Positions 3,864 to 38,320 of a stretch of 38,320 nucleotides of DNA are shown piece after piece. Position 1 is the first letter of the stretch. Every line of letters begins with the position of its first letter. A model generated the notes under the pieces. It saw nothing but the letters and a program-made list of their open reading frames with translations, was not told where the DNA came from and did no database searches. This stretch comes from a virus: positions 1-38,320 of IMG/VR virus record IMGVR_UViG_3300032304_000709; one strand, written 5' to 3'. The position numbers and the translations under genes are program-made.

Positions 3864-5159
3864 ATGGGTAATAAAGCACAGAATGTCACGGCGATTGACC
3901 GTGCCAATAAGAAAGCAACAATCATGTACGGCAACGGGGCGACTTATGAACGCCAATTCGTTTCGCTGGACAGAAACACTATGCTCAAGGTTGTTAAAAT
4001 GTTGGGCTATCGTTTCAACACTGGTCGTGCACCATTGTCTTATACACAATGGGAATTGGTCAAGATTGCAGATAAACTTTGCAATGGTGAAACTATTCCA
4101 ACCCCTGAACGACCTGTGATTAGTGTCACAGAGCCAGTCAAGGCTACGGAGGCTATTGCTGGTCGTGTTGAGAAAGCAGTGGCTGATGTTATTGCTGATG
4201 CTCTTAAGGGTATTGCACCAACACAACCCACTATTGACCCTGAGGCTATTCGCTCTATGGTCGCTGATACTGTCAATGCCGAAATCGTTAAACTTAATGA
4301 CAAGGTTGCGTTAATGGAACGATTGGTTCGTGAGAACAAGCCAACCGTGACAAATGTCACTATTGGCAACGGCGAAACCAAGCCCATTACTGGTCGTACT
4401 CATGAGAAGTTCACTGATGTACTACGAGTGGTATCCGCTGGACTGTTCCCATGGCTTACTGGTGGTGCTGGTGTTGGTAAAACCACTATTGCACAACAAG
4501 TAGCCGAAGTGTTGGACTTGCCTTTTGACGCTGAAGGTTTCTGCGCTCAATCGTCCAAGTCGGAACTCAAGGGCTACAAGGACGGCAACGGGCTATACAA
4601 TAGCACGAAGTTCCGTGAACGATTTGAGCAGGGCGGTGTTTATCTGCTTGATGAAATTGACGGTGCTAATCCGAACATTCTATTGGCACTCAATAGTGCT
4701 TTGTCCAATGGCTTTATGGCGTTCCCTGATGGTACAGTGAAGCGCCATAAGGACTTTATAGCGATTGCTTGTGCCAATACTTATGGTAATGGTGCAACAG
4801 CAGAATATGTGGGTCGTCAAGTGATTGACGGTGCATCTATTGACCGCTTCGTTAAGATGGACATTCCTATTGACACCAGCATGGAGGCTGGAGTTGTTAA
4901 TGACATCTCTATGGACGCTTTGGCTGGTCGTGAATGGCTCAATGTTATTGCTAGAGTTCGTGCCAATGTTGCCAACTATGGACTCAAGGTGATTGTGTCG
5001 CCTCGTAGTTCCATTAACGGTGCTAAGTTGCTTAATGCAGGGTTCACATATCAACAATGTGTGCCAATGACATTCGGCTCTGGTGTCAAGCCAGAAACGC
5101 TTAGCAAGATGATGGAAGGTGTCAATGTCCCCGCTGGAGGTGCTATAATTACTAAATAG
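3864..5159 (+). CDS. MoxR/CobS-type AAA+ ATPase
   Basis: 431 residues. The N-terminal 180 residues are a phage-specific region with a coiled segment (about 110-165). The AAA+ core shows Walker A GGAGVGKTT (about 200-208), Walker B GGVYLLDEID (about 257-266), a sensor-1 Asn in AIACANTYGNG (about 301) and an arginine-finger segment GASIDRFVKMDI (about 323). This is the MoxR/CobS/dynein-related (AAA_5) arrangement. Such ATPases remodel partner proteins, often with a metal-binding (VWA-like) partner encoded next door, which fits the following gene. It has a two-hairpin leader and a GTACGGC element. The substrate is unknown; phage roles may include replication complex or host protein remodelling. 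The assignment to AAA+ is secure. Confidence 0.9.
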   Translation: MGNKAQNVTAIDRANKKATIMYGNGATYERQFVSLDRNTMLKVVKMLGYRFNTGRAPLSYTQWELVKIADKLCNGETIPTPERPVISVTEPVKATEAIAGRVEKAVADVIADALKGIAPTQPTIDPEAIRSMVADTVNAEIVKLNDKVALMERLVRENKPTVTNVTIGNGETKPITGRTHEKFTDVLRVVSAGLFPWLTGGAGVGKTTIAQQVAEVLDLPFDAEGFCAQSSKSELKGYKDGNGLYNSTKFRERFEQGGVYLLDEIDGANPNILLALNSALSNGFMAFPDGTVKRHKDFIAIACANTYGNGATAEYVGRQVIDGASIDRFVKMDIPIDTSMEAGVVNDISMDALAGREWLNVIARVRANVANYGLKVIVSPRSSINGAKLLNAGFTYQQCVPMTFGSGVKPETLSKMMEGVNVPAGGAIITK

Positions 5160-5258: not shown

Positions 5259-5274
5259 AACACTGGGAGGTGTT
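5259..5274 (+). promoter_or_regulatory. Shine-Dalgarno hairpin E (before 5276)
   Basis: AACAC (5259-5263), loop TGGGAG, GTGTT (5270-5274): a perfect 5-bp stem ending two bases before the ATG at 5276. It also settles the start: an in-frame GTG at 5270 lies inside the stem and is rejected. Confidence 0.75.
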
Positions 5275-5275
5275 C

Positions 5276-6115
5276 ATGCAAGGAAATATGATTAAAGAAC
5301 GCAATATATGGCTTGACGAGTTTGAGTCACTTAACGAGGCTTTGCAATATGCTAAAGCAAATACCGATAGGCGTTCCTCTGACAAGGAACGAGACAGCAA
5401 GTGGGCTGGGTCTGCTTCGCTTGATGAGGCAGTACAACTAGGTATTGACGGCTGGCATGAAATTCGCCCTGATGTTGATGCCATGTTTGGCAAAATGGAA
5501 GAACAAATAAATATGGCTTTGGGTGATGTATTTGAGACACGCTTTGACTATGGTGGTGATAGCGTGGACATTGACCGATTTATGATGGGTGACCCCGAAT
5601 GTATGATTGACTATGTGACTACTCCTGCTGGTCGTATGGGTCGTGTTGTTCGTGTACTTGTCAATGGTTCAGCGTCAGCCTCGGTCAGCCCCGAACAAAT
5701 TATGCAACGAGGTGTATTAGCAACAGCGCTTGTTGATGTATTAGCGAAACTTGGTGTTGGTGTAGAAGTGTGGCTAGAGTCCGCTACTGACGACCATGGC
5801 AAGTCTAAGCACTCACAACTTATTAAACTACATTCCAGCGAGGAACGATTGGACATTGACAACCTTATGTTTGCTATGGCTCACCCTAGTATGCTACGCC
5901 GTGTCGGTTTCTCTATATTGGAACGCACTGGTTGGGAAAACGCTAAGCGTATTGCTAGAGAAGGTGCGGGTTATGGTCAGCCTCACGATTGCCTAATGAA
6001 AGATTACATTCAGGCAGATGTTGTGATTGACAAATTGCAAAACGCAACAGGTGACCCTGTTGCTGATGGTGTTGCTTACATTATGTCCACCGTTAAAGGA
6101 TTGGATTTACTGTAA
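5276..6115 (+). CDS. Likely partner of the MoxR ATPase (DUF7192 / VWA-like)
   Basis: 279 residues from ATG 5276. The N-terminal part contains the pattern SLDEAVQLGIDGWHEIRPDV. The central stretch RVVRVLVNGSASASVSPEQI, followed by GVLATALVDVLAKLGVGVEV, has a beta-strand, Ser-rich loop and helix order reminiscent of a VWA-type fold. I associate this architecture with the phage DUF7192 family, which often follows MoxR-type ATPases. A pairing like CobS with CobT, where the ATPase and a metal-binding partner act together, is the working idea. A clear MIDAS DxSxS is not visible (NGSASAS is the nearest). It has its own structured leader, so its level is set separately from the ATPase. Confidence 0.55.
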   Translation: MQGNMIKERNIWLDEFESLNEALQYAKANTDRRSSDKERDSKWAGSASLDEAVQLGIDGWHEIRPDVDAMFGKMEEQINMALGDVFETRFDYGGDSVDIDRFMMGDPECMIDYVTTPAGRMGRVVRVLVNGSASASVSPEQIMQRGVLATALVDVLAKLGVGVEVWLESATDDHGKSKHSQLIKLHSSEERLDIDNLMFAMAHPSMLRRVGFSILERTGWENAKRIAREGAGYGQPHDCLMKDYIQADVVIDKLQNATGDPVADGVAYIMSTVKGLDLL

Positions 6116-8462: not shown

Positions 8463-8909
8463 ATGAGTGCCGTATCCAAAGACCAAAGCATTATCTTGCA
8501 AGTAGCAGGTAAAATCGCAGCGGATTTGACCCCAAAAACAGAGGACATTAACACTAATGTTGCCAACTGGATTATGGCGTTTGACGCTGTATCAGAAGGC
8601 TTGTTCACTTCTATGGGAATGACAGGTGCAACTCCTGAAGAAACAACACAGAATGTTATTGAGGCTTTCGGTGCTACCGCTGTGGCAACACCAATGCCAA
8701 CACAAACATTTAGTCAGCCAACTGGTGGTACTGTGCGTATTAAGGGTAAGCAACACGGACCAATTCCTGATTGGCTCATTACAGAATGTGCTAAGGTTGG
8801 AGTTACCGAAGTGTGGGATAACCGTGATGGACTTGCGGCTAACCCTAAGCGTCCTTGGTTCAAGGCAACCGTAGGCGACAAAGCCTTTTGGGCACCACGA
8901 GGTAAGTAA
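8463..8909 (+). CDS. Candidate single-strand DNA-binding protein or replication accessory
   Basis: 148 residues. The N-terminal half is helical (about 1-65), then a Thr/Gln/Pro linker leads into a conserved-looking C-terminal domain beginning VRIKGKQHGPIPDWLITECA and ending NPKRPWFKATVGDKAFWAPR. The aromatic and basic C-terminal module between a RecB-like nuclease and a helicase suggests nucleic-acid binding. I do not recognise an OB-fold with certainty. Its stop overlaps the helicase start (TAATG), so the two proteins are probably made in step. No other SSB is visible in this genome. Confidence 0.5.
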   Translation: MSAVSKDQSIILQVAGKIAADLTPKTEDINTNVANWIMAFDAVSEGLFTSMGMTGATPEETTQNVIEAFGATAVATPMPTQTFSQPTGGTVRIKGKQHGPIPDWLITECAKVGVTEVWDNRDGLAANPKRPWFKATVGDKAFWAPRGK

Positions 8910-9991
8910 TGACACCTGCTCCTGATTACACGGAGCGTTGGGCAAAGATTGGGCGGGGAGAGAACATCTCCCCGCCTGATTTGTCTATGGCTCCAAAGTT
9001 TAATTACTATTCGCCTCTTGCTAAAGCGGCTGATGATTATGTGCATTGGGCACAAACCCCACACGAACGGATTTATCTTGGGTTCGCTGAGATTGACTCG
9101 CAGATGAAAGGTATCGCCCCATCGGAGTTGTGTCTTATTAACGGCTATTCACATAGCGGTAAGACATTGGCGTTGCTACAAATCCTTGTTGCCAATCGTG
9201 ATAAGCGTGTAGTTTATTTCTGTCCCGACGAACCACGCACACTAACTCTTATTAAGTTGGCTTGTGTTACACACGGTTTAGATGCCAACGAGTTTGAGCA
9301 ACAGATTGCTAGTGGCAACAGTGCCAGCATTAACTTGTTGCGTGAAACCGCTAACGAATACTTCCCTAATCTGGCTGTGTTTGACCAGACCGTATCGCTT
9401 ATAGATATGGAACGGGCTTTGGCTGAACTAGAAACAGTTATGGGTGACCCACAGTTAATCGTTGTGGACTACCTTGACTTAATTACAGGTGGCGGTGAAG
9501 ATGTACCGTCCAAGGCTAACAGCATTAAAGCATTTGGTAAACGCCATAATGTTCCGTTGCTTGTATTGCACCAAGCCTCACGCACTTCAGGTGCTGACGG
9601 TAAAAAGCAGACTATTAGTTCGGGTGCTTATGGTGGTGAACAACAGGCTACACATATCATTGGTGTACGCCGTAAGCGCTTTGAAATTGAGGGACACATT
9701 CGTGAACTACAAGAGAAACTTGATAGGGCTACGAATACTGAACGCATTATAGAAAAGATTGAGTCACTGCAATATGACCTGCGTATTCATATGGATACCG
9801 TTACATTGAACCTTGTTAAGTGCAAGCGTCCTGCTTCGCAGTTGCTTGACGACATGGACTTCAGTATTGAGTATGGTACTGGTCGTTTGCATAGGTTGGA
9901 AACGGGTGTGTTACCGTGGAAAGATGTCCAGCCTAGCGTGGACAAACCAACAGAACAACTAACAATAACAGACGCATTGGAGGACTGGTGA
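8909..9991 (+). CDS. RecA/DnaB-superfamily replicative helicase-like ATPase
   Basis: 360 residues. Walker A GYSHSGKT (about 78-85), Walker B LIVVDYLDLI (about 183-192), and a sensor-like HQASRTSG (about 219-226) follow the order of the DnaB C-terminal domain. The segment LGFAEIDSQMKGIAPSELCL just before Walker A is typical of DnaB-like phage helicases (GF..ID....G...GEL). A DnaB N-terminal primase-binding domain is not obvious. A charged coiled insert (about 255-290) is phage-specific. Its GTGA overlap with the primase gene argues that helicase and primase work together. Confidence 0.85.
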   Translation: MTPAPDYTERWAKIGRGENISPPDLSMAPKFNYYSPLAKAADDYVHWAQTPHERIYLGFAEIDSQMKGIAPSELCLINGYSHSGKTLALLQILVANRDKRVVYFCPDEPRTLTLIKLACVTHGLDANEFEQQIASGNSASINLLRETANEYFPNLAVFDQTVSLIDMERALAELETVMGDPQLIVVDYLDLITGGGEDVPSKANSIKAFGKRHNVPLLVLHQASRTSGADGKKQTISSGAYGGEQQATHIIGVRRKRFEIEGHIRELQEKLDRATNTERIIEKIESLQYDLRIHMDTVTLNLVKCKRPASQLLDDMDFSIEYGTGRLHRLETGVLPWKDVQPSVDKPTEQLTITDALEDW

Positions 9992-10911
9992 TAGAGGACT
10001 ACGCACTTGACCCATTCGTAAAACTATTCGCAGGTCGTGATGATGTGTACGGTTCCAACGAGGGTGGTTGTGTAAAGTCACGGCTAGACAGCACTGTGCT
10101 ACAAAACCATTTCAATGGCACAGCACCTATCGGCATCTACCCTGTCGTACCCCGTGACGGTTTATGTTATGTCGGTTGGGGTTGCGTGGACTTTGACACC
10201 ACCGAAGCACAAGACCATGCCACAAAACTTTATGATGCGTTAATGGAAGCAGGCGTACAGTCGTGGATAGAACGCTCACGGTCAAAAGGTTACCATGTTT
10301 GGGTATTCGCTGACCGTCCTGTCCTCGCTGTACTCATGCGACAAATGCTTATCGTTGCATGTCATGTTGCCGAGGTTCCAACAACCGAGGTCAATCCAAA
10401 GCAGACAACACTAGCCAAAGGTTCTTATGGCAACTATGTTCGCTTACCTTATGCTGGCATACTAGAGGACGCATACACAGACAAACAGCGTATCATTGAA
10501 CGCAACCATGTTAATCACCACATGCCACACCCACCCATGCCGTTCATGGATTTCGTTACAGAAGCAAACGCCACCCGTGTATCAGCAGACACAATAGCCC
10601 ACATCTCCAGCATGTATCAGCCACCAGTCAAGCAGACAGTCGCTGGCGTTGTAACATATGACGCTACACTTGACGAGGCTATGCAACTACTCAGCCCATT
10701 AGGTAAGGTTATATGGCGTGACGGTCCACTTGCAGGCAAAGACCGTTCATCAACGCTAGCCAAACTAGGTCACGAAACTGTACGCAGTGGACTTAATCCT
10801 AGTCAAACCAAAATTGTATTACGCACAGCAGACCAGCGGTGGGGCAAATATCATTTGCGCCACGACGGCGAATTAGAAATAGACAAACTTGTAGTAAGGG
10901 TACATTCGTGA
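9988..10911 (+). CDS. Archaeo-eukaryotic primase (AEP) superfamily protein
   Basis: 307 residues from a GTG at 9988 that overlaps the helicase stop (GTGA). GWGCVDFDTT (about 64-73) supplies the D-x-D metal ligands, and RSRSKGYHVWVFA (about 94-106) is the S-x-H nucleotide-binding motif seen in AEP primases of phages, plasmids and TOTE-type proteins. Further AEP-like elements are TTEVNPKQ and the GNYVRLPYAG segment. The C-terminal 90 residues form a separate helical domain (KVIWRDGPLAGKDRSSTLAK), like PriCT-type helicase-binding tails. It probably makes primers for the host polymerase, since no phage polymerase is present. Confidence 0.85.
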   Translation: MIEDYALDPFVKLFAGRDDVYGSNEGGCVKSRLDSTVLQNHFNGTAPIGIYPVVPRDGLCYVGWGCVDFDTTEAQDHATKLYDALMEAGVQSWIERSRSKGYHVWVFADRPVLAVLMRQMLIVACHVAEVPTTEVNPKQTTLAKGSYGNYVRLPYAGILEDAYTDKQRIIERNHVNHHMPHPPMPFMDFVTEANATRVSADTIAHISSMYQPPVKQTVAGVVTYDATLDEAMQLLSPLGKVIWRDGPLAGKDRSSTLAKLGHETVRSGLNPSQTKIVLRTADQRWGKYHLRHDGELEIDKLVVRVHS

Positions 10912-11492
10912 CAACTATTCTAGCAATCCAAGGTGACAATTACGCTGCCATATGTTCAGACTCCCAGTGGACAGATGATTATGGTCGTGTCGGCAAAATG
11001 GCGCAATCTAAGGTTGTGACAGTTGGCAGATACCTTATTGGTATCGCTGGCGACACGAGGGGTGCAAACATTATACAACATATGTTTGTGCCCCCAGCGT
11101 TACCTGTTAAACTTGGTGGTGCAAAACTAGCGAAGTTTATTGTAAGCCAGTTTATACCGTCATTACGAACTGTGTTGGAGGACAACGGGTTAGGTCGCCC
11201 ACAATATGATGACCGACCAGCCGAGTCCTCCAACGATATCTTAGTGCTGGCTAATGGAACTATATTCCAAATAGATACAGACTACGGAACCGAGATAGAT
11301 GCCAACGGCATTTATGCTATTGGTTCTGGTGCGCATTATGGACTAGGTGCATTGGAAGTATTAACAGCGAAAAAGAAAATCACTATCCCATACGCTAAGC
11401 AATCCTTGCTTAAGGCTGTTGCTGTTAGCGCAAAGTTTGATAGCGGTTCAGGCGCACCATTCCACACTTTTGTCCAAGCCAAGGCTAACTAA
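10908..11492 (+). CDS. HslV / proteasome beta-like Ntn-hydrolase
   Basis: 194 residues from a GTG at 10908 (GTGA overlap with the primase stop). A longer in-frame start at 10839 would hide the nucleophile and is rejected. Removing the initiator Met exposes Thr-Thr, as in HslV ([19 protein letters not shown]). Counting from the mature Thr1: Asp17 is exactly in place, a Lys lies at 34 (Lys33 in HslV), GSG falls at 138-140 ([16 protein letters not shown]), and a DSGSG (Asp177, Ser180) matches the proteasomal Asp166/Ser169 spacing. All active-site positions therefore seem intact. No HslU or other unfoldase partner beyond the MoxR-like ATPase is encoded. Related proteins appear in phages of Actinobacteria, from memory. 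The substrate is unknown. Confidence 0.85.
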
Positions 11493-11863
11493 TGGCTGTC
11501 AGGAAGAAGTCAAAAAAGCCTGTAAATACAGGTGTTTTTGTACCTAGTAAACCTGTACCCAAAGGTCGCCCAAGAATGACACGCCGTGGGCGTGTCTTCA
11601 CACCGCAAACAACATTAGACGCTGAAGCGATAATCAGAGAAGCGTGGACAGGCGAGTGTTATGATGGTCTAGTGGTGTTAACTTGTGAGTTCTCTCCTGA
11701 GGGCACACGCTTTACTGTTAATCCCGTATCAGATAAAACAACAAAGCCAAGCAAATTGCGTGGCGATTTGGACAACTATGTAAAACTACTAATGGACGGG
11801 TTGAACGGTGTGGCATGGCTAGACGACAAGCAAGTAGTGACGATAATAGCAGTAAAAAGATGA
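11492..11863 (+). CDS. rusA: RusA-family Holliday junction resolvase
   Basis: 123 residues. The N-terminal basic region has [16 protein letters not shown], and the core [16 protein letters not shown] (about 89-104), then AWLDDKQVV, is the RusA signature: three Asp around an N-x-x-K segment, followed by DD. RusA dimers cut four-way junctions formed during replication and recombination and may debranch DNA before packaging. The start shares an A with the stop of the peptidase gene, and its stop overlaps the next start (ATGA). Length is normal for the family. Confidence 0.9.
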
Positions 11864-12324
11864 ACCCGAATAACTCCGACTATGATATTCCCGAACGGAG
11901 ATTTGATTGGCAAACAGACTTAAAGTTTGGCAAGAAGGGTGAATCATTAGTAGAGGATTTTCTAAACACAATCAGCGAAGGTGCGTTTGAAGTTAAGACA
12001 GACCGATATCGCAACGGTCGCATGGTTGTGGAAATGGAACAAAACCCTAGATTAAAGAAAGATGAGAATGGCAAACCGTTTTGGAAACCCAGTGGATTAC
12101 AAGTTACAAAAGCAAAGTGGTGGGTATATGTTTATACGCTTGATGGTGCGTTCGTTATTGTTTCCGTTCCACGCCTTAAGAGGTATTTACAGGCGAATAG
12201 TGAGCGGTTTAATAGCAAGAAGTATAAACAATTCGCTGTCCGTTCAGGCAACCCGTCAGCAGGATTCCTCCTTGAACCCGAAGATGTAATGGACATGATG
12301 ATTAATAAGGCGTATGATGAATAA
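11860..12324 (+). CDS. PD-(D/E)XK nuclease-like protein
   Basis: 154 residues from ATG 11860, chosen because it overlaps the RusA stop as ATGA; a start at 11815 would lie deep inside the RusA gene. [15 protein letters not shown] (Glu28), [12 protein letters not shown] (Glu44-x-Lys46) and VVEMEQN (Glu58) give the E, (D/E)-x-K pattern of a PD-(D/E)XK core of VRR-NUC or resolvase type. It could act in DNA repair, junction processing or degradation of host DNA. The C-terminal part ([20 protein letters not shown]) is basic. Confidence 0.7.
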
Positions 12325-12694
12325 GTGGAACGCACCGAAATCGTTTAACGATTTCCCCGACCAACAATCACCAGCAAATTATATGCAGGTTGACGAGGAC
12401 ATAGAATGGTTAATGCAACCACTTGTGTACGAGAACCCTGAAAAGGAATCGTTAGAGTTGTCGGAACTGATGTCAGAAGTTTTGATGTCACTTGACGATG
12501 TTGACCGAGAGATGCTACAGTTAATCTACTATGAACGAAAAACCTTTCAAGAAGCCGCCCAAGAAATGGGTATCAAAGCGAAGTCACATGCTTGGCGTAA
12601 AACCAAATCCGCTTTGGACAAGTTTGCTGAAGCAATCCAGAGTAACCCACAGATTATGGAAATATTAAACAACAAATACGACTTGGAGGACTAA
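12314..12694 (+). CDS. Sigma-70 region 4-like HTH protein
   Basis: 126 residues; ATG 12314 overlaps the previous gene, and a second ATG at 12317 is an equal option. The segment SLDDVDREMLQLIYYERKTF, then QEAAQEMGIKAKSHAWRKTK (about 55-95), follows the sigma region 4 pattern that binds -35 DNA. Regions 2 and 3 are absent. Proteins of this form can act as phage transcription regulators that redirect host RNA polymerase, possibly to the structured-leader or late promoters. It could also be a general HTH regulator. It is near the end of the early block, a suitable place for a late-gene switch. Confidence 0.7.
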   Translation: MMNKWNAPKSFNDFPDQQSPANYMQVDEDIEWLMQPLVYENPEKESLELSELMSEVLMSLDDVDREMLQLIYYERKTFQEAAQEMGIKAKSHAWRKTKSALDKFAEAIQSNPQIMEILNNKYDLED

Positions 12695-13357: not shown

Positions 13358-13592
13358 AGGTTTTGACCCAGACGACATAGACGAACTAGAAGGTCTGTTC
13401 ACCGAAATAGTATCTGACAACGAAGATGGCTTCGTCATGGAGTTCATCATCTCTGTCCTTGCCGCCAAAGAACTTATAGACTTATGGGAACAAGCAGAAC
13501 TAGGTGACTATGATGCCCAACAGGCATCATGGCAAGAGTACACCAAGATTATTATGAAACTAGAAAACGCTGTTTACGGCGTGGACGAGTAA
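13347..13592 (+). CDS. Acidic 81-residue protein, last gene of the rightward block
   Basis: Very acidic throughout (MSDEGFDPDDIDELEGLFTE, VSDNEDGFVMEFI) and helical, with no recognised family. Small acidic phage proteins can mimic DNA or inhibit host enzymes, but this one has no specific mark of that. It overlaps the preceding gene by 11 bases, and its 3' end overlaps the convergent giant gene by 19 bases. Confidence 0.6.
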   Translation: MSDEGFDPDDIDELEGLFTEIVSDNEDGFVMEFIISVLAAKELIDLWEQAELGDYDAQQASWQEYTKIIMKLENAVYGVDE

Positions 13593-16500
13593 TCTTTCTC
13601 AATACGGATTTGTTTTTCAATTTCCTGTTTCAGTTTATTGACATTAAAGTTCCGTGAGATAAGTTCAGATTCCTCTTGCTGTAGTCCAACACCACGATAA
13701 GGGATACCAAACCAGTTCCATACGCTACTAGCCCAGCGTTCGTTCAGGCTTTCCTTACCGCCAGTTCTACCACCAGTTAACCTGTTAATTTGTTGCAATG
13801 GAACCGCTGCCTGCTCAATGGCATAACTTACGCCAGCGTGCATTAGATAGTCGCCAGTTTCCTCATCACGGTCAATCAGACCATACATTTTCATGTCACG
13901 CAACAACTGCCAAATGTATTTCTCGTAGCCACGAACATCAGCGGTTTTCTTAAAGTTACCAACATCCAAACCAAGTTGACGCTTAGAAACAAAAAGTTCA
14001 ACAGGCACACGGACTATTGGGTTAACCTGACCCATAAGTTTAAGTGGGTTAAACAAACCTTCAATCTGTTGCTTCATGCGCATATGAGGTAGGTCAGGTG
14101 TTAGGAATGAACCCTTACCAATCTGCAATGGACTATAAGCCTTAATCCACTTAGGGATAATAGCGCCCTCGTCCTCAGGGGTTGTCGGGTCGTCTTCGGT
14201 GGCAGGCAAAGCCCGTTGAATCCTGTTGTACTCATAGTAAGCCTTAGGGCGGCTCATCATCTGTGTAATCTGCAACGGCACATTTCGGCTCGTCCAAATC
14301 CAAAACGGAATTGCTTTCTTAGCCAACTCGTCAAACGCAGACAAGTCACTATAGTCAAAGTGCACACGGCTAATGCGGGCTACCGCTTCCTCAACGGTAT
14401 GTCCCTGCCGAACAGAGTCCAAAGCCATAGGGATACGCAAAGCCCGTTCAACAAAGTCATTCTTGCTAGTAAACAAATTCAAATAAGGGTTATCGCCAAG
14501 TCTCCACTTGGCGGTTTTCTCATTCTTATCCATCCACTTAGTTACTTTCCAGCGTTCAACAACAGGCATAGCGTTATCGGTATTAACGCCACGGCTAGTG
14601 GCGTAAACAATTTCCATAACCTTATTTGCTTCCGCTACAGCAGCAGGATTGTTTAAGTCAATGCCAGCCGCTTCCATCCATTTGCCCCACGAATTGCCAG
14701 CCTTACGCCAGTTCGCTTCATTACGCAAAATTGGTCCTTGTGCGCTAGCCCACTTAGTGCCTTCAATAATATGACTAGTGGTTACACCATCAGCATAATT
14801 CATAAAGGTTCCGCTATAACCGTTACGAACCAGGAAGCCCATAGTGTTAGTAACATATTTCTTCCAGTAACCTTGAACACGACCAATAGCCTTGCCGAAC
14901 TCTTTAAGTTCATCGTCGCTTTGCAACTTAGCAAGGTTTGGTTTCCAGCGTTCCAACACCTCTGACGGCATCTGAACGCCCAATGACTTAAGGGCTTCCC
15001 AACCCTTGTCAGCGGTTTCATATATATATCTACCGCCTTCCCAGCCCATAGACACAATGGCGGCTTCCATGTTCATGTCAACAAGTTCGGAATCAATCTT
15101 AGCCAACGCAACCTCGTCAGCCAACAGAATTTTAACAACCCTGTCATATGCGTCCCTGACCGCTGGGTCTTCAATTAAAGAACTATTAGCCAACAGTTTT
15201 TCTGTTTGACGAACCCAAGCCGCATTAGCGCCAGCGCTAAGCCCTTGGTCTGGAATGGTTTGCAAATGCAAAACCATGCCAGCAATCTCGTCAACAAGTT
15301 TCTGTTCAAACTCTGGAGTCCAATCAGCCAAAGCCTTAACATTATCAAAGGCAACAAGCATACGGCTAGTCACATCTAAAGAAGCCACATCCAATGCTTC
15401 AACGCCGAACTCCCGTTCTGTCGTTGCTAAAACCTCATCATCAATAGCCTTATATGCTGCTTCAATTTGGTCTTCAAGTTTAGCCATTTTGTTACGGGCA
15501 ATGAAAGCAGGATACTGCTTTCCATTAACCGTAACCATATCCTCGGTAATGTTCTTAGCCAATGTTTGTACTTCAATTGTTTTCTCAACACCAAACAACT
15601 GGTCTTCAAGTTCACGCCTAGCGGCTTGAATAACTTCAACATCAACACCGTCCTGTATAAGCATGTCAGCATTTTCAATTAACTGCAAGCGTGACATTTC
15701 TGTGGTGTTATCCAAAACGCTATTTGCCATAGTGTTATCTTTAACGAACTGTACTTCATCATAGAAGTTGGTTCCAACCTGTGGGGTTGGAGTAGAAGCA
15801 TGTTGCAACACAGCCCACTCGCTTGACGGTGTATCATCAAACACTGCTTTAGCAGGGACAAGAATACCGTCAAAGCCTTCTTGGTCAGCAACATCAATCA
15901 GCGATTGGAACCATTCGTTAATAACTGACCGTGATACCGCATCAGCGTTAGGTGCATCAAGTGACGCAATAACATTATAGTTAGCGTCCTTAATCATGTT
16001 AAAGAACTGCTCAACCTGCCTGTCGGTTAGGTCAACACCTTCCTCAATAGCGTCCTCAACAACCTGTCGGAACTGCAAAAACCCGTCAAGCAACATAGCC
16101 TTCTCAGGGTTTGTTTGCCACATCAAATCGTCAACAACACCACTTTCCATAGCATCATCAACAACGCTATTCCAAGTCATGTCTGGCACACCAATCCTGC
16201 CCCAAGAATAACCAAACTCGTAAATAGTGCTTGGGTCGTCCACGACAGCAAGCATATGGTCAGTTGTTCTGAAGTCAACTAACTGCTCTTCAGGTATAGC
16301 ATGACGCATTAAAGCGTCATCCATTTGCCTAAATGCACCAGCATCGTTATATGGTGCCATAGTAGTCCACATTTGGAACGGCATAGGTTCACCCTCAACA
16401 GGCGCAAAACCAAACAACACACCCTTATCAGAATATGATGCACCTTCACGGACAGAATCTAACTCGTCAAAACCATCAATCTGTGCACGCACAGTACTTA

Positions 16501-18907
16501 AGCGTTCATCAATCCAACGCAACTTCTGAATGTTCTCAGAAGTCTTGGGGGTGGTTTGCAACATCTCAACTAAGCGTGCCTCGGTCTGCCTAAGAGCAGG
16601 TATCTCATGGCTTGTTACAGTAGCGCCGCCGTTAATAGCACGGCTAATGCGTTCAGCAATCCATTCAACAGGCTTATCAACAAGTTCAGAACCATCAGAT
16701 TCAGGGAACTCCGCAAAGTACATTTGCTTCAAACGCTGACCAGCGGAGTATCGTTCAGCACCACCATTGATAATGGCTTCACGCAAGTTATGCGCCTCAG
16801 CCAAAATACCAGCATGTGCATCCGCCCACTGTCCACGCTGTTGAGCAGTCAAGTTCATAGCAAAAGTCCGTGACTCCTCCTGCCTACGAATAATCTCAGA
16901 CAGTTCATCAACAACACTAAGCAACTCTGCGTCAGCAACCTGCTTATTCATGAAGCCACCCTCAAGTGCTTTGGTCGTCAGACCAATAACTTCACGCAAC
17001 TCTTTAGCAACATCACCTTTAATCTTTGTTGTGCCAACACCAACACGAACACGCATGGCGATAATGTCACGAATACGACCAAGTTTAGTTATGTCGTCAC
17101 GCAAACTTGCAAGCAAGGTTGCGTCTGGAATAACATCTTTGATAAGCAATGGCTTAATAACATCTGGACCATAGTTGAACATGTTGTCAACAAAACGCAA
17201 GCGGGAGTGCGCACGAGCCACGCTATTAGCGTAACCTTCTGTAATGATACGCAAATCTTCTTCAAAGAAGTTTGCTCGTGGCAAACCTTCTGCTTCAAGG
17301 AAATCACCATAAATCTTGTTAATTTCCGATATGCTACCATGTTGAAGTTTTGTGCCTAGGAAGTCTTCACCAGCCGTATATTTACGGAACTGCAAAGGAC
17401 CAGAACCCTCAACAACATCGTTCTTTGTCAAGTCAAAGAACTTCTTTATTTTACCACCAGCACCAAAGATGTCTTCACGAGCAGCAGGAGTTAACTGGTG
17501 ATAAATGTAATCGTCCAGCATGGACAAATCGTTAATGTTAATGTCACGGGTTTTAGCAAGTCTTTGTACTGCGTCACCATATCGTGAGTAAATCATGTCC
17601 TGCCATGCAATATATTTTTCAACAATTTCTGAAGCAGTACCGCTTAAGGACGCACGAATAGTTGGTGATTCAACGGCATGAACAATACTTGGAATTGATG
17701 TGTCGCCAGCCTCTTCAGCCAATCCTAACAAATTCAAATGTTCTTCTGACTCGGAATCAATGACTCGGCGCATCCATTCCAAATGTCCACGAGCAACAGT
17801 GCCACTAGATTTTTCCGCTAATGGCACAAGCCATTTGCTATCAAACCTATTCATTGCACCAGCACGGAACAAACCTGCTTCCACAGCAGGTTTCATTGAT
17901 TTACTGGTAAGAACTCTTTCTACCTTAGCACCATATTTAGAGCCAAATACAACATCACCAATATTGGCACGGGCAGCACCACCAGTATAACGCCACGCCC
18001 TAGCCAAACCATCAGTATAAGGAAGTTCCTTACCAGCCCACTTAACACCAAGGAAAATGTTTTCAGCCTCACGAATGTGTTTAGGGATTTCAACTGGACC
18101 ATAACGAGCAATGTTGCCCAACAACGGTTTAAGTTCAGGATACTTAGTAATCAAAGGAATCATACGATTGGATAACGCCAATCGTCCAGCCTTAGATGAC
18201 ACGCTAGCACCCATTGTCATATAAGTTAATGGGTCAAAAACAACACCAGAAGCAAGTTCAACAACAAGGTTCTCGTCAGCCTTACCACCATTATACCAGT
18301 TGTCACGACCAATAGCCCACGACCTATCGGTAACCTTATCAGAGAACTCTTCAACACTAGCCTTAACAGGAACCCACTCACCGTTCTTATCACGACTCTT
18401 TAATACAATTTTTTGTCCGCCACCAGTTTGTGGCATAAATAACTGACCAATACCTTCGGTTGCTTCAACAGCCGCAGCCTGACCAGTACGAATAATGTCT
18501 TCACTAATTTGAAGTGCAGGTTTACCAATATACTTCTTAAACGGATTAACAACAGTTGATTGCAACGAATTCTGGATAAACCCAGTAATGTTCTCACCCT
18601 TCTGGGTTTTAAGAATATCAGCAGCCCACTTACGCTTATCAGCCTCGGACAAGTTAGGGTCATTCATAACCTTTTTAGTTAACTTATCACCACTAGTGCG
18701 CAACTGACGCATAGCCTTGTTGACTGCTATGTCCTCATCGCTTATACCAGAAGCAACTCCAACCTGTTTTGTTTTGTCGGCATACTCCGTTATAACCGTA
18801 ACACCAAAAGAGTCAGTCCAAGTTTTGTTGCCGTCCTTGTCTATGCCAGCACCAAACTCTTGCGAGTCTGTTCCAGTAATCTTGCTAAATGGTGATTTAC
18901 GAATCAT
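13574..18907 (-). CDS. Giant internal virion / ejection-type (polyvalent-like) protein, 1777 residues
   Basis: The largest gene, last in the leftward block. The N-terminus is hydrophilic. Residues about 200-250 contain a hydrophobic helix (ELASGVVFDPLTYMTMGASV), and most of the rest is helical. Near residues 1515-1540 the sequence RVHFDYSDLSAFDELAKKAI, then PFWIWTSRN, matches a conserved stretch I associate with very large phage virion proteins carried in podovirus particles. Residues about 825-1040 look like a separate globular domain ending GFDGILVPAK...EWAVLQ, reminiscent of ADP-ribosyltransferase-like domains in polyvalent proteins; this is tentative. Such proteins are probably injected with DNA. 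No lytic transglycosylase motif was found in it. The start has AGGGAC upstream. Confidence 0.7.
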   Translation of the reverse strand: MIRKSPFSKITGTDSQEFGAGIDKDGNKTWTDSFGVTVITEYADKTKQVGVASGISDEDIAVNKAMRQLRTSGDKLTKKVMNDPNLSEADKRKWAADILKTQKGENITGFIQNSLQSTVVNPFKKYIGKPALQISEDIIRTGQAAAVEATEGIGQLFMPQTGGGQKIVLKSRDKNGEWVPVKASVEEFSDKVTDRSWAIGRDNWYNGGKADENLVVELASGVVFDPLTYMTMGASVSSKAGRLALSNRMIPLITKYPELKPLLGNIARYGPVEIPKHIREAENIFLGVKWAGKELPYTDGLARAWRYTGGAARANIGDVVFGSKYGAKVERVLTSKSMKPAVEAGLFRAGAMNRFDSKWLVPLAEKSSGTVARGHLEWMRRVIDSESEEHLNLLGLAEEAGDTSIPSIVHAVESPTIRASLSGTASEIVEKYIAWQDMIYSRYGDAVQRLAKTRDININDLSMLDDYIYHQLTPAAREDIFGAGGKIKKFFDLTKNDVVEGSGPLQFRKYTAGEDFLGTKLQHGSISEINKIYGDFLEAEGLPRANFFEEDLRIITEGYANSVARAHSRLRFVDNMFNYGPDVIKPLLIKDVIPDATLLASLRDDITKLGRIRDIIAMRVRVGVGTTKIKGDVAKELREVIGLTTKALEGGFMNKQVADAELLSVVDELSEIIRRQEESRTFAMNLTAQQRGQWADAHAGILAEAHNLREAIINGGAERYSAGQRLKQMYFAEFPESDGSELVDKPVEWIAERISRAINGGATVTSHEIPALRQTEARLVEMLQTTPKTSENIQKLRWIDERLSTVRAQIDGFDELDSVREGASYSDKGVLFGFAPVEGEPMPFQMWTTMAPYNDAGAFRQMDDALMRHAIPEEQLVDFRTTDHMLAVVDDPSTIYEFGYSWGRIGVPDMTWNSVVDDAMESGVVDDLMWQTNPEKAMLLDGFLQFRQVVEDAIEEGVDLTDRQVEQFFNMIKDANYNVIASLDAPNADAVSRSVINEWFQSLIDVADQEGFDGILVPAKAVFDDTPSSEWAVLQHASTPTPQVGTNFYDEVQFVKDNTMANSVLDNTTEMSRLQLIENADMLIQDGVDVEVIQAARRELEDQLFGVEKTIEVQTLAKNITEDMVTVNGKQYPAFIARNKMAKLEDQIEAAYKAIDDEVLATTEREFGVEALDVASLDVTSRMLVAFDNVKALADWTPEFEQKLVDEIAGMVLHLQTIPDQGLSAGANAAWVRQTEKLLANSSLIEDPAVRDAYDRVVKILLADEVALAKIDSELVDMNMEAAIVSMGWEGGRYIYETADKGWEALKSLGVQMPSEVLERWKPNLAKLQSDDELKEFGKAIGRVQGYWKKYVTNTMGFLVRNGYSGTFMNYADGVTTSHIIEGTKWASAQGPILRNEANWRKAGNSWGKWMEAAGIDLNNPAAVAEANKVMEIVYATSRGVNTDNAMPVVERWKVTKWMDKNEKTAKWRLGDNPYLNLFTSKNDFVERALRIPMALDSVRQGHTVEEAVARISRVHFDYSDLSAFDELAKKAIPFWIWTSRNVPLQITQMMSRPKAYYEYNRIQRALPATEDDPTTPEDEGAIIPKWIKAYSPLQIGKGSFLTPDLPHMRMKQQIEGLFNPLKLMGQVNPIVRVPVELFVSKRQLGLDVGNFKKTADVRGYEKYIWQLLRDMKMYGLIDRDEETGDYLMHAGVSYAIEQAAVPLQQINRLTGGRTGGKESLNERWASSVWNWFGIPYRGVGLQQEESELISRNFNVNKLKQEIEKQIRIEKDYSSTP

Positions 18908-25932: not shown

Positions 25933-26871
25933 TTATGCAGTCTTAGCGGTCAACTTGCCTTGCTTCTTGCGGTTGCGGCAGGTAAGGTTACCGTAGCACA
26001 TGATGAGTGCGTAACGAGCGTCCAAGTTTTCTGGACGAACGAACTCAGTCTGCTGGAACCACTTGCCTGAGTGACCTACGAGGCTGAGGTACTTACTGTT
26101 GATGAAGAACATCGTGCCAGCAGGAGCAGCAGTGTCGTACACAACTGGAGCAGCCTTGAACAACAGGTTCTGGAATCCAGCGTCTGCGGTCTTGCTGTCG
26201 GTGTAACGCAACTGTGGTTGCAGCAATGCTTCATACTTTTCAAACAATGCACGGGTTGTCAAAACCATGTCTGGGTGGTCATTACCAACCGACACGGTGT
26301 TGTAAGCAGTTGCCATTTGTGCGAGGGTCAAAGCACCTGCGGTGTTTTCCTCGTACGAACGCCAGTACTCGTTACCTGCGGTTGCCGAGTTAATTCCACC
26401 AACAGAGTTACCTGATTCAACGATGTTTCCAAGACCGTTCCAGTCTTTTCCACTGTTGCCAGTTCCGTCTGCGAAGAACATCGTGTTGAAACCTTCACGC
26501 ATTGACTCTTCAGCCTGCATGATTTTTGCTTCCAACAAGTTGATGATTTCTTGTTCACCGTTGTTCTTGGCTTCTTCAATACCGCTGATTGCGATAGATG
26601 CAGCGTACTGCTTCCATTCGTATTCAGCAGCCGTGATACCAGTTTGTGCTGTTAGCGCAATGGTGTCGTAGCCTGAGTACGATGCAACGGTTGAGTTCTG
26701 ACCGTAGATGAGTGGTTCAACAATTTTGGTACCGCCGTTAAGCATACGAATACGACCCTTTTGCATGAGGTGGTTCGTAAGTACACGGTCGGTGAACACA
26801 TTGTCCGTGAGTTGGTCACGATAGTTTGCGAGCGTTGTACTGAGCAACGCATCAAAGTTTGGGTTTGACAT
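25933..26871 (-). CDS. Major capsid protein
   Basis: 312 residues. It follows the scaffold gene and precedes a terminator, the usual situation of the capsid gene. The N-terminus MSNPNFDALLSTTLANYRDQ, then NRVLTNHLMQKGRIRMLNGG-like wording (exactly VLTNHLMQKGRIRMLNGG), a middle rich in surface loops (GTGNSGKDWNGLGNIVESG) and VLTTRALFEKYEALLQPQLR near residue 205 are typical of HK97-fold capsid proteins of phages with separate scaffolds. GTMFFINSKYLSLVGHSGKW near the C-terminus matches the conserved P-domain strand. A good AAAGGAAA ribosome site precedes ATG 26871. Confidence 0.88.
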   Translation of the reverse strand: MSNPNFDALLSTTLANYRDQLTDNVFTDRVLTNHLMQKGRIRMLNGGTKIVEPLIYGQNSTVASYSGYDTIALTAQTGITAAEYEWKQYAASIAISGIEEAKNNGEQEIINLLEAKIMQAEESMREGFNTMFFADGTGNSGKDWNGLGNIVESGNSVGGINSATAGNEYWRSYEENTAGALTLAQMATAYNTVSVGNDHPDMVLTTRALFEKYEALLQPQLRYTDSKTADAGFQNLLFKAAPVVYDTAAPAGTMFFINSKYLSLVGHSGKWFQQTEFVRPENLDARYALIMCYGNLTCRNRKKQGKLTAKTA

Positions 26872-26906
26872 TATTTTCCTTTTAGAAAACTAGGGGGTTT
26901 AGATTT

Positions 26907-27695
26907 TTAGTTTGCACCCATTTGACGCTTAGCGGCAGCCCAAGCCTCAGCAATTGAAGTAATTGGTTCAAACGAATCACTTGTCGTACTAGCGGTAGCA
27001 GAACTGCCACCATTAATAACACTGGCTAAACGCTTTGATTCCAACACAGATTCTTCAATCTGTTGTTGGCGTTCTCGTCCGAGTTTAGCCATTCTTGCTT
27101 CGTTCACCATTTTATCAAATGCCAACTGCTTATAGATGCCTTCTAAATCTGTTGTATTTCGCTGCAATGCGACTTGTACAACTTCCTTAACATCAAAGTC
27201 AGGATACATGTCTTGCAAACCAGCAATTTCTCTTTCAATCTGTTGCTGACTTTTCTCTTCTTCAAACTGTGCTATGCGCCTATCCAGTTCCCTGTACTTC
27301 TTTTCTACAGGGTCAAGATATTCTTCCTCTTCAGCCATCATTTCAGCAGCAGCCTTTTGGCTGATGCCATAATGTTGACTCAAAAGTTCCAGCGTTGATG
27401 CAGGGTCGGAATCCAAAGCCGCTTGAAGCGCAGTAGCAAATTGAACTTGTTCTCTCTGCTGACTGAGTTCTTGCGTCTTACGGGTATAATCTGCTTGACG
27501 CTGGTAACCAGCGATAGCCTCAGATAAAGGAACTTGCAATTCCTCACCATCCAGTTTGACTGGCACTCTATAACTAGAGTACTCGTCAATTGACAAGACG
27601 GGTGTATCGGGTGCTTCTGTATGACCGTTATCGTACTCGGTTGACCCAACTTCTACGGGTTCCATTCCATCAAACGATGTGAGTTCGTCACTCAT
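26907..27695 (-). CDS. Scaffolding protein
   Basis: 262 residues, acidic and helical, between portal and capsid genes. YRVPVKLDGEELQVPLSEAI, then AGYQRQADYTRKTQELSQQR (about residues 43-83) is the common pattern of phage scaffolding proteins, followed by an extended coiled coil (PVEKKYRELDRRIAQFEEEK) and a C-terminal helix (EAWAAAKRQMGAN) suited to capsid binding. No protease motif was seen. TAGGAG precedes the ATG. Confidence 0.85.
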   Translation of the reverse strand: MSDELTSFDGMEPVEVGSTEYDNGHTEAPDTPVLSIDEYSSYRVPVKLDGEELQVPLSEAIAGYQRQADYTRKTQELSQQREQVQFATALQAALDSDPASTLELLSQHYGISQKAAAEMMAEEEEYLDPVEKKYRELDRRIAQFEEEKSQQQIEREIAGLQDMYPDFDVKEVVQVALQRNTTDLEGIYKQLAFDKMVNEARMAKLGRERQQQIEESVLESKRLASVINGGSSATASTTSDSFEPITSIAEAWAAAKRQMGAN

Positions 27696-27754
27696 TATGT
27701 ATTTTTTCTCCTAGAGTCCTATAATGGTTGCTCTATATATAATATGGGCGTTCC

Positions 27755-29515
27755 CTACGCCATAGGAGGCGCTGCTTGTCCTTGCTGTAGCATTGCTTGG
27801 ATTTCTGGTGGAAGACCGCTTGTAGGGCTTCCAGACGGCGCTGGAGCGCCTTCTGGCGGCATACCCGCTGGCATTGTACCTTCAGGTCCAGCAGGGACAG
27901 GAGGGGGTGCTTGTTGAATAAACTCATCAGGGTTCTTTACCCCGAAACCGAACTGCAACACATAGGCTGCAAGTTTCTGCATGTTAACGATACCAGCACC
28001 AGCAAACGGTGCCATAGCGTCAACCATCTGCAACGCCATCTGTCGCTTAAACGATTCGTTATGCGGCTGAGTAGAACCAGCCGCTACTTCAAAGTCAAAG
28101 TCACCAGCCAAATAGTCACGGTCAAAAGTGACCCACATTGGTTCGCCATCTTTGCCAGTTACACGAGCAACCTGCTCACCAGTCATAAATTGTTGAGCGA
28201 GTTGCATCATACGGCGACCAACCTCAGCGATGGCTTGTTCAACAACAGCCAACTTGTCCGAAGTTCGTGCGTTGGCAGCATCCTGCAACAATGACGATTC
28301 TGTAGCCGTGCGGCGAATTTCTGATACCGCACCACGCTGGAATTCTGACACGCCAGAAATACGGTCAATGTCACCAATAATTAAACTTGATTGGTTGTAG
28401 AATTCTGGTGGGTTAATTACGGCAGGGAAAGCGGTAACTACACCACCCAATGCTTCATCAGAGACAACTGGAACCATAACATTGTCCTCGTCTGATTCCA
28501 ATGCTGAACGACCCAACTGGTCAAACGCTGATTCCTTGTACAAATATTTGCGGCTAAACTTTTTGCGATGATTCATCATCTGCGAACGAGTCTCATTTAG
28601 TTCTCGTTGCAATGGTTCAATTGATTCCAAATCACCAATAGGATAGAACATGTCTGGAATGTCATAGTTACGAATCATAACAAATGGTTGACCAAATGAG
28701 TACGGCATTTTCATTGGCTTAACCAAAAACTGGTCTGCTGTTTCACAAAAGATTGACATTGTTCCACCAACGATGTCGTAGAATTCCCAAATTTCTGCAT
28801 AACCCACATTTTTGTCATGCACCTTTTTTCGGCTTGGGTCATCAGAGTATTTGCTTACAGCCATAACCTGAACTTTGTCACGGGCTGCTTTAATATAACG
28901 CTTATCGTTTTTAATTTCGCTAATAGGACGACGGATTCGTTGCGCAATCCATTTGATGTCACTCATACTTGTTGCATCTGGGTCAACAAACACATCATGT
29001 GGGGATACCCGTTCTGCGAACGGGGCATCCTCACGAATAACCAGATTGCTTGTTTCTTTGCCACCTTCAATTGCGGCATCTGAAAACTCTTCGTCTTCCA
29101 TTGACATCGCTTCTTCTTCTACGAAACGATAACCAACCTTAACCCAGCCGTGACCGAATGTTAGCATGTCTTTTACTGCACGGCGGAACTGTGTGCGAAT
29201 GTCACGCTTCTTCCACCAATAGTTTACAACGGCTTCGGCAATGACAGCATTAGCAGCATTATCTGGGCTAACTGCATTAACCGTAATCTTAGGGTAGTTA
29301 ACCGAAATGCTAGGTGAAATAACATTCACAGTTGAGAAAGCAATGTTAACCAACATCTGGTCTTCATTCTTATAGTCGTCAAAATGACGACCACGATACA
29401 TGTCTTTTAGTCGTTGCCATGTAGCGTCATAACCATCATCTTTACGCCATTTGCGACTTGACTCAATCGCCATCTTTTGTTTCTTGAGATAATCTCCCAA
29501 ATTTCTGCGTGCCAC
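27755..29515 (-). CDS. Portal protein
   Basis: 586 residues from a GTG at 29515, which overlaps the previous stop (TAGTG) and has AAGGAC upstream. The order is portal-like: an N-terminal helical part (KWRKDDGYDATWQRLKDMYR), NIAFSTVNVISPSISVNYPK near residue 60, RAVKDMLTFGHGWVKVGYRF at about 110-130, then clip, wing and stem helices (DIERISGVSEFQRGA-like segment reads IDRISGVSEFQRGAVSEI). The C-terminal 70 residues are Pro/Gly/Ala-rich (PPPVPAGPEGTMPAGMPPEG) and probably flexible inside the crown. It would form the dodecameric vertex that binds TerL and the adaptor. Confidence 0.88.
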   Translation of the reverse strand: MARRNLGDYLKKQKMAIESSRKWRKDDGYDATWQRLKDMYRGRHFDDYKNEDQMLVNIAFSTVNVISPSISVNYPKITVNAVSPDNAANAVIAEAVVNYWWKKRDIRTQFRRAVKDMLTFGHGWVKVGYRFVEEEAMSMEDEEFSDAAIEGGKETSNLVIREDAPFAERVSPHDVFVDPDATSMSDIKWIAQRIRRPISEIKNDKRYIKAARDKVQVMAVSKYSDDPSRKKVHDKNVGYAEIWEFYDIVGGTMSIFCETADQFLVKPMKMPYSFGQPFVMIRNYDIPDMFYPIGDLESIEPLQRELNETRSQMMNHRKKFSRKYLYKESAFDQLGRSALESDEDNVMVPVVSDEALGGVVTAFPAVINPPEFYNQSSLIIGDIDRISGVSEFQRGAVSEIRRTATESSLLQDAANARTSDKLAVVEQAIAEVGRRMMQLAQQFMTGEQVARVTGKDGEPMWVTFDRDYLAGDFDFEVAAGSTQPHNESFKRQMALQMVDAMAPFAGAGIVNMQKLAAYVLQFGFGVKNPDEFIQQAPPPVPAGPEGTMPAGMPPEGAPAPSGSPTSGLPPEIQAMLQQGQAAPPMA

Positions 29516-36620: not shown

Positions 36621-38054
36621 CTAACTGAATATTTGAATTGCCAAAATTGGTTGGTCATCATCCGCTGGGCTACCAGCGGTTGATGGAATCCATTTTGCCT
36701 GTGCAGAACTATAAACCAAAGCCTGACCATTAGTTGGTGTAGTAAAGTTTGGCTGAATAACAGAGTTACCAATAACTAGAGCAGTACCATCCAAAGAGTA
36801 CTGCAATGTTCCACCACCGCTTGCACCATTAATACCAGAAGCAGAATAAGTACCATAGTTCCCTGCTGTGTTAAGTGTCAAGTTAGGGTCAGCAGTATTA
36901 GTCAAAGTTGCTGTAGTAGTACCAGTACCACCAAGAGTTAACGATGTACTGTTCGCTGTTGCGGTTGATGCACCAGTTGAAGTACTCCAAATAGAACTGT
37001 TCTGCGAGTGAGTAGCAGTAGTTGTCGTACCGTTACTAAGAACAACGCTGGTACCCTTGGTCCACTTACTAAGCGAATTTGACCAAACCAAAGGTTGGTT
37101 GTTAACAGTTGGTGTCGTAAACGACACATCCGACAAACCTTGCAAAGAACTAGTTAATGTTGTCCACTGCGTGTTAAAGTTTGTAGAATCAATCTTTGAT
37201 AATACCTGTCCCGCTGTACCACCAACTGGAACCCCAGCACCAGTTGCTCCTGTAGCACCAGTTGGACCTGTCGCTCCAGTATCACCAGTTAAACCAATTG
37301 GTCCCTGAGGACCAGTTGGTCCAGTTGCCCCAGTTGCACCTGTTGCTCCAGTTGGACCAGTTGGTCCAGTATCACCAATAGGACCTTGGATTCCTTGTGG
37401 ACCTGTTGGACCTGTAGAACCCGTAGCGCCAGTTGGTCCAGTTGGACCTGTCAGACCTATCGGTCCTTGTGGACCTTCAGCACCAACAGCACCAGACAAG
37501 TTAACTTCCCAAGATGAATATGTTCCAGAACCAGCAGAATCAACAATCTGTGAAACTATAACACCAGTACTTGGATTATAACTATCAATCTCTGCGTGCA
37601 TATGATTACTAATGTTATAAGAAACATTTATAACCTGATTAACACTATAAGACAATCCAGTTCCAACAGTTAAAGTTAAAGTTCCACTAGAAGCAATAGT
37701 CAAACTAGATGTTGATGTTGTCTGATATTTGTCTCCAGCCAAACCTTGGATTCCCTGAGGTCCCTGCGGTCCAGTAGGACCAGTAGCACCAGTAGCCCCT
37801 GTTGGACCCTGAGGTCCAGTTAAACCAATCGGACCTTGAGGTCCTGTTGCTCCTGTCGCACCCGTAGGACCAACAGCACCAGTAGCGCCCGTAGGACCAG
37901 TAGCACCAACAGGACCTTGGATACCTTGGATGCCTTGTGCGCCAGTTTGACCCGTAGGACCATAAGCCGCACTAGAAATAGTAGTAATAGTAGCAGTACG
38001 AATAACACCGTTACTCGTATCCTGACGGACTACATCAACACGCAGAACAGCCAT
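36621..38054 (-). CDS. Collagen-like tail fibre protein
   Basis: 477 residues. Two collagen-like Gly-X-Y arrays (about residues 32-108 and 188-276, such as [16 protein letters not shown] and [13 protein letters not shown]) flank a beta domain ([33 protein letters not shown]) found in many phage fibres. The C-terminal 180 residues are Ser/Thr-rich beta repeats ([20 protein letters not shown], then [13 protein letters not shown]). The protein should form a trimeric fibre. The repeats make the DNA prone to recombination and to assembly errors. Its start overlaps the stop of the gene split by the contig ends. Confidence 0.9.
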
Positions 38055-38320
38055 TATCGGGTTACATCCGCCAACACAGTAACTGTCCCCGCCAAAATCG
38101 TAGTCACAACACCACTATAGGTTTCTTCAAAATCCCAATAATATTTACCAGCAGCCAAATTAGCGGTAGTAGCAGCGGACAAAGTACAAGTAACCTCACC
38201 AGCGCTAGCATTAGTAATAGCGCAAGAGAAACTTGCAGCAATCGTGCTAGCATCCTTGCTGGCACGAATCTGGGCACGGTAAGTGCGACCCACAATATTC
38301 ACGGGTGTACTAGCAGAATC
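38054..38320 (-). CDS. Small tail-region protein, C-terminal part (gene split by contig ends)
   Basis: The continuation of the gene that starts at 195. Codons from 38320 down to 38198 repeat the left-end copy; 38197 to 38054 completes the protein (end [16 protein letters not shown]). An internal ATG at 38302 is not the true start. This portion has beta strands ([20 protein letters not shown]) typical of compact virion domains. It overlaps the collagen-like fibre start by one base (TAATG style on the minus strand). Confidence 0.8.
38198..38320. repeat. Right copy of terminal direct repeat
   Basis: Identical to bases 1-123. See the left copy: the split gene reads through correctly when the two copies are merged. 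Confidence 0.95.

Follow-up and report, generated by a model that had tools for sequence, protein, structure and literature searches.

The 38,320-bp viral record IMGVR_UViG_3300032304_000709, analysed over its whole length (hereafter the window), encodes a threonine peptidase of the proteasome/BPH/HslV type (Ntn hydrolase; positions 10908..11492, + strand; 194 aa, no propeptide), which very likely has the Ntn fold and an intact catalytic site. The protein is a new phage member of an already known family, represented by phrog_1040, and phage proteasome homologs are known as well (PMC8665760). The reading preferred here, to which we give about an even chance, is that of an active BPH-like compartmental threonine peptidase made early together with the replication genes and working without a dedicated phage unfoldase. 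The window phage is an aquatic phage, and its record looks like a complete genome, since identical 123-bp direct repeats occupy its termini (1-123 and 38198-38320); no RNA family and no tRNA were found in the window.

The peptidase ORF begins with a GTG codon at 10908, which overlaps the stop codon of the primase gene (primase end at 10911), and finishes with TAA at 11490-11492, overlapped at 11492 by the ATG of the gene for a RusA-like resolvase; the sequence-only reading had described this placement and both codon overlaps correctly. In 27 relatives of the peptidase, the start codon is ATG or GTG with Thr-Thr or Thr-Ser next to it, and in several of them in-frame stops lie within 10 codons upstream; the shared start point and these stops fix the start at 10908. 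A longer in-frame start at 10839 finds no support, as the relatives start at the same MTT/VTT point. Given the start fixed by comparison and the known specificity of methionine aminopeptidase, the Thr would become residue 1 after removal of Met, without a propeptide. Purifying selection on the gene is strong (dN/dS 0.04-0.11 for the estimable pairs in two clades, one further pair being saturated at synonymous sites).

In mature numbering, the catalytic residues are Thr1/Asp17/Lys34, with Gly47 (oxyanion), Ser139 and Asp177. An alignment of 39 diverse viral homologs (mean column identity 35%) retained Thr1, Asp17 and Lys in 39/39 sequences each, Gly47 in 37/39 and Ser or Thr at the Ser129-equivalent position in 38/39; its invariant positions, counted with Met, are M1, T2, D18, K35, P63, G117, G139 and G141. 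These results agree with the earlier proposal of a T1-family Ntn hydrolase with an intact active site, made from an N-terminal Thr-Thr, Asp17 and a Lys near position 33-34; all three are present as described, the Lys having number 34 in the mature protein, one higher than in the proteasome (Lys33), and the Thr (Thr2 with Met counted) is never lost among the relatives. The Asp-x-x-Ser near the C-terminus, also offered as a T1 mark, is constant among the close relatives, where the Ser is sometimes Thr, but among the diverse homologs only 29/39 retain the Asp166 equivalent and 10 have lost it, which makes this element less diagnostic.

Profile searches revealed a match to phrog_1040 ("peptidase HslV family", E=1.1e-22) over peptidase residues 1-190 and to Pfam Proteasome (PF00227, T1) at 24.2 bits, the gathering cut-off being 22.4. 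A PDB search with the peptidase sequence found BPH (3e-5), and a PDB profile search with the 39-member alignment found BPH (2e-16), HslV (1e-14) and 20S beta (1e-9). The phrog_1040, Pfam and PDB profile matches, together with the dN/dS values, indicate that the family match is not due to chance. No encoded relative was found when the alignment of close relatives was used to search 84,980 species genomes.

AlphaFold2 modelling with the 39 diverse homologs as alignment gave a model with a pLDDT of 91.3, replacing an earlier model built from 18 close relatives (pLDDT 35). The comparison with HslV and proteasome beta that the sequence-only reading had suggested indicates the Ntn fold: a search of the PDB placed BPH first (TM 0.77-0.81; Z 21.8 over 174 residues), followed by 20S beta subunits and HslV (Z 19-20). 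The nearest viral model, UniProt A0A6J7XBU4 of an uncultured Caudovirales phage (TM 0.98, 70% identical, already named HslV), belongs with phrog_1040 to the same family and has the same fold; for both, the open-licence literature yielded no functional work and no mention of a primase/RusA context.

BPH of Thiobacillus and Cupriavidus (PDB 5ovs, 5ovt, 5ovu) is the best match in both sequence and structure. It shares with the window peptidase the equivalents of Thr1, Asp17, Lys and Ser139, the lack of a propeptide, a long pore loop and the apparent lack of a dedicated ATPase, whereas the window peptidase is only about 25% identical to BPH, is encoded by a virus and has a less acidic loop. This loop, which follows a helix (H2) predicted at residues 71-92, has roughly the length seen in BPH, exceeds that of HslV and carries a net charge of only about -1. 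HslV (ClpQ) has the same fold and triad, but its loop from H2 to the next strand is shorter and the window genome lacks an HslU partner. Membership of HslV proper was rejected, the scores lying far below the equivalog cut-offs (25.5 versus 157.75 bits for TIGR03692 and 26.4 versus 137 for NF003964).

In 2021, Fuchs, Alva and Lupas described 22 proteasome homologs, among them the phage-borne PPH and AAH; the homologs had no known function and were not accompanied by AAA+ proteins (PMC8665760). PPH and AAH, both group I homologs encoded by phages, resemble the window peptidase in that they have its triad and a partner is not known for either. PPH measures about 140 aa and has no helix H2 (PMC8665760); identity with PPH was ruled out by the 194-aa length and the predicted H2 of the window peptidase. 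In a tree built without reference AAH sequences, a branch separate from the window peptidase is formed by homologs from plasmids of Rhizobium and Streptomyces, which start with MTC/MTV and resemble AAH in their distribution. In this tree, the window clade was joined with the clade of phage DSL-LC01 with modest support (87/79), both apart from the plasmid homologs, and several long branches make the deep relations unsure. A Salmonella jumbo phage has been reported to carry HslV-type genes without HslU (PMC7823757), and a proteasome-like gene is known from an Alteromonas phage (PMC7289586). No known function of any phage proteasome homolog was found in the open-licence literature, searched without supplements. 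Connectase is a proteasome homolog that acts as a monomeric, specific ligase (PMC8665760). A narrow, non-degradative enzyme of this kind, such as a protein ligase or an amidohydrolase, was also considered; it is very improbable, as the compact HslV/BPH-like chain aligns to BPH over its whole length and lacks the helical insertion of connectase.

Under the preferred BPH-like reading, the phage gene would encode an active threonine peptidase of the HslV/BPH branch that forms its own compartment: removal of Met would expose Thr1, and the subunits would build a closed double ring enclosing the active sites. Ring assembly is probable. Action without an unfoldase is plausible by analogy with BPH, a tetradecameric double ring with no known partner ATPase (PMC5777263); like BPH, the peptidase might act on proteins that are short, unfolded or recognised specifically. 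Its expression would fall early in infection, together with that of the replication genes, and it would most likely remove or trim particular host or phage proteins; host defence or replication proteins, named in the sequence-only reading, may be among the targets. The invariance of Thr1, Asp17 and Lys, the BPH-like model and loop length and the dN/dS values favour this reading, as do the precedent of BPH, the existence of phages that carry the peptidase without the AAA ATPase or an AAA_2 unfoldase and the conserved position of the gene in related contigs. Against it stand the loop charge of about -1, compared with the strongly acidic loop of BPH, and the little activity of recombinant BPH itself, possibly for want of a cofactor (PMC5777263), as well as sister phages that dispense with the peptidase and the widely differing contexts of the homologs.

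The sequence-only reading had considered a MoxR-type ATPase of the phage as a possible unfoldase. This CobS/MoxR-type AAA ATPase (3864..5159, +; phrog_249) is followed by its companion, a DUF7192 protein (5270..6115, +; phrog_1909), and the two genes lie upstream of the replication run wherever a peptidase-bearing contig reaches that far, so that ATPase and peptidase occur together in every related genome covering the region; DSL-LC01 and Pumpernickel also carry both. However, the ATPase and DUF7192 genes are neighbours in mycobacteriophages too, where no peptidase was detected, the sister phage L079 keeps the ATPase and lacks the peptidase, and the peptidase occurs without the ATPase in E7-type phages, Pitbull, D'Alembert and Geobacillus E3; in the window, about 5.7 kb with seven ORFs separate the two genes. 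Because of the DUF7192 pairing, the peptidase-less sister and the peptidase phages without the ATPase, the protein encoded at 3864 is unlikely to be a dedicated unfoldase, and a role as an unfoldase that the phage itself supplies to the peptidase is given hardly any probability. The DUF7192 motif VVRVLVNGSASAS resembles, in our reading, a degenerate VWA metal site, and the two proteins may be a MoxR-VWA pair. An AAA_2 search of the whole window record retrieved only the CobS-like AAA protein, below the family cut-off, and an AAA_2 unfoldase above the cut-off was found in none of the peptidase-bearing phage records searched; no phage-encoded partner of the HslU/ClpX type was detected in the window genome.

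Without an HslU-type partner in the phage genome, a host one is possible, and the peptidase could team up with an AAA+ unfoldase of the host, of the HslU, ClpX/ClpC or Mpa type, and redirect host protein degradation. The relatives HslV and 20S use such ATPases, and some actinobacteria possess proteasomes. Planktophila phage E7, which carries a homolog of the peptidase, infects an actinobacterium (PMC10202952). We consider such a partnership unlikely, though not negligibly so: the peptidase loop has a BPH-like length, Fuchs et al. found no co-occurring AAA+ protein (PMC8665760), and the window phage lacks the host marker WhiB, as do all of the 14 further records of its group that were searched. 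A genome scan with a WhiB query, meant as an actinobacterial reference point, found none.

The peptidase gene is part of a run in which it is preceded by genes for a DnaB-like replicative helicase (8909..9991, +; family profile matches and synteny) and an archaeo-eukaryotic-type primase (AEP-TOTE; 9988..10911, +; PF22548, 4.7e-22) and followed by that for the RusA-like Holliday junction resolvase (11492..11863, +; PF05866, 3.5e-16; phrog_140, 3.6e-20). The order kept in peptidase-bearing contigs is exonuclease, g8463, DnaB, primase, peptidase, RusA, g11815 and a sigma-like gene, and the peptidase lies between primase and RusA in about 40 related contigs; an independent primase search found it in 8/8 readable loci with a primase identity of at least 60%. 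No earlier description of this position, or of the portal-adjacent position in the E7 group described below, was found in open-licence papers, searched without supplements. In three sister contigs (primase 50% identical), RusA follows the primase directly; the phrog_1040 gene was not found in these records, which are possibly fragments, although the slot itself was read. Other relatives contain unrelated genes in the gap. The primase-RusA gap is a cargo slot with the peptidase as its usual occupant, as the sisters without the peptidase and the relatives with extra genes indicate. Membership of a replication unit, proposed earlier, holds as far as the position in the run is concerned, but the link is positional: sisters lack the gene, relatives insert unrelated ones and the largest group of homologs is portal-adjacent. 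Still other homologs lie near WhiB, PhoH, ThyX or ligase genes, and since close homologs sit in such different contexts, the gene position need not reveal the function of the peptidase. A short NMN-transporter-like (PnuC-like) membrane protein is encoded between primase and peptidase in some relatives (L071, 4078-4284; L072, L073 and L076), its match of 18.7 bits being below the Pfam cut-off. A small protein with sigma-70 region 4 (12314-12694, +; 25.5 bits) is conserved in most relatives and may redirect late transcription.

A second clade was found using the homolog in OX376640 (LanE43-AprE7) as the query, which gave 144 related viral stretches, 80 loci being kept (L097-L176). LanE43-AprE7 is apparently the cultivated Planktophila phage E7; phage LanE43AprE7 (39.1 kb, 44.8% GC) was isolated by Kavagutti et al. 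in 2023 (PMC10202952). Conserved, strongly selected homologs, one of them in an apparently cultivated lake phage, make the viral use of a proteasome-like peptidase testable. Fuchs et al. found no AAH in an actinobacteria-specific phage (PMC8665760); the Planktophila phages with the peptidase bear on this 2021 statement as possible carriers of AAH. In phage E7, the homolog (L030, 7500-8036) comes directly after the portal gene, an arrangement seen in 75/76 E7-type loci with enough upstream sequence, and this is the usual position of a prohead protease; a scan of part of the E7 ORFs detected no further protease family. A 1764-aa ORF without a PHROG match lies downstream of the portal in E7 (L030, 8727-14021); an ORF of similar length is present in the window (below). 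The Pumpernickel homolog, used as a query, retrieved no viral relatives.

The portal-adjacent slot and the lack of another protease among the scanned E7 proteins would suit a virion-precursor processing enzyme, a proteasome-type equivalent of the prohead protease. For the window peptidase, this role is doubtful: its gene belongs to the replication run, at a great distance from the head genes (25933-29515), which lie on the other strand, and homologs also adjoin PhoH, ThyX or ligase genes. Many podoviruses, moreover, are not known to need a prohead protease. A combined scheme, in which a domesticated core gene of aquatic phages would serve as a portal-linked capsid-maturation protease in the E7 group and a replication-linked protease in the window group, is rather improbable too; if true, viruses would be using the proteasome fold to mature their virions, a parallel to ClpP-like prohead proteases. 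Elsewhere on the minus strand, the window contains an ORF of 1777 aa (13574-18907) and, near its right end, a gene for a collagen-repeat protein (36621-38054; PF01391, 9e-24), which is probably a tail or fibre component.
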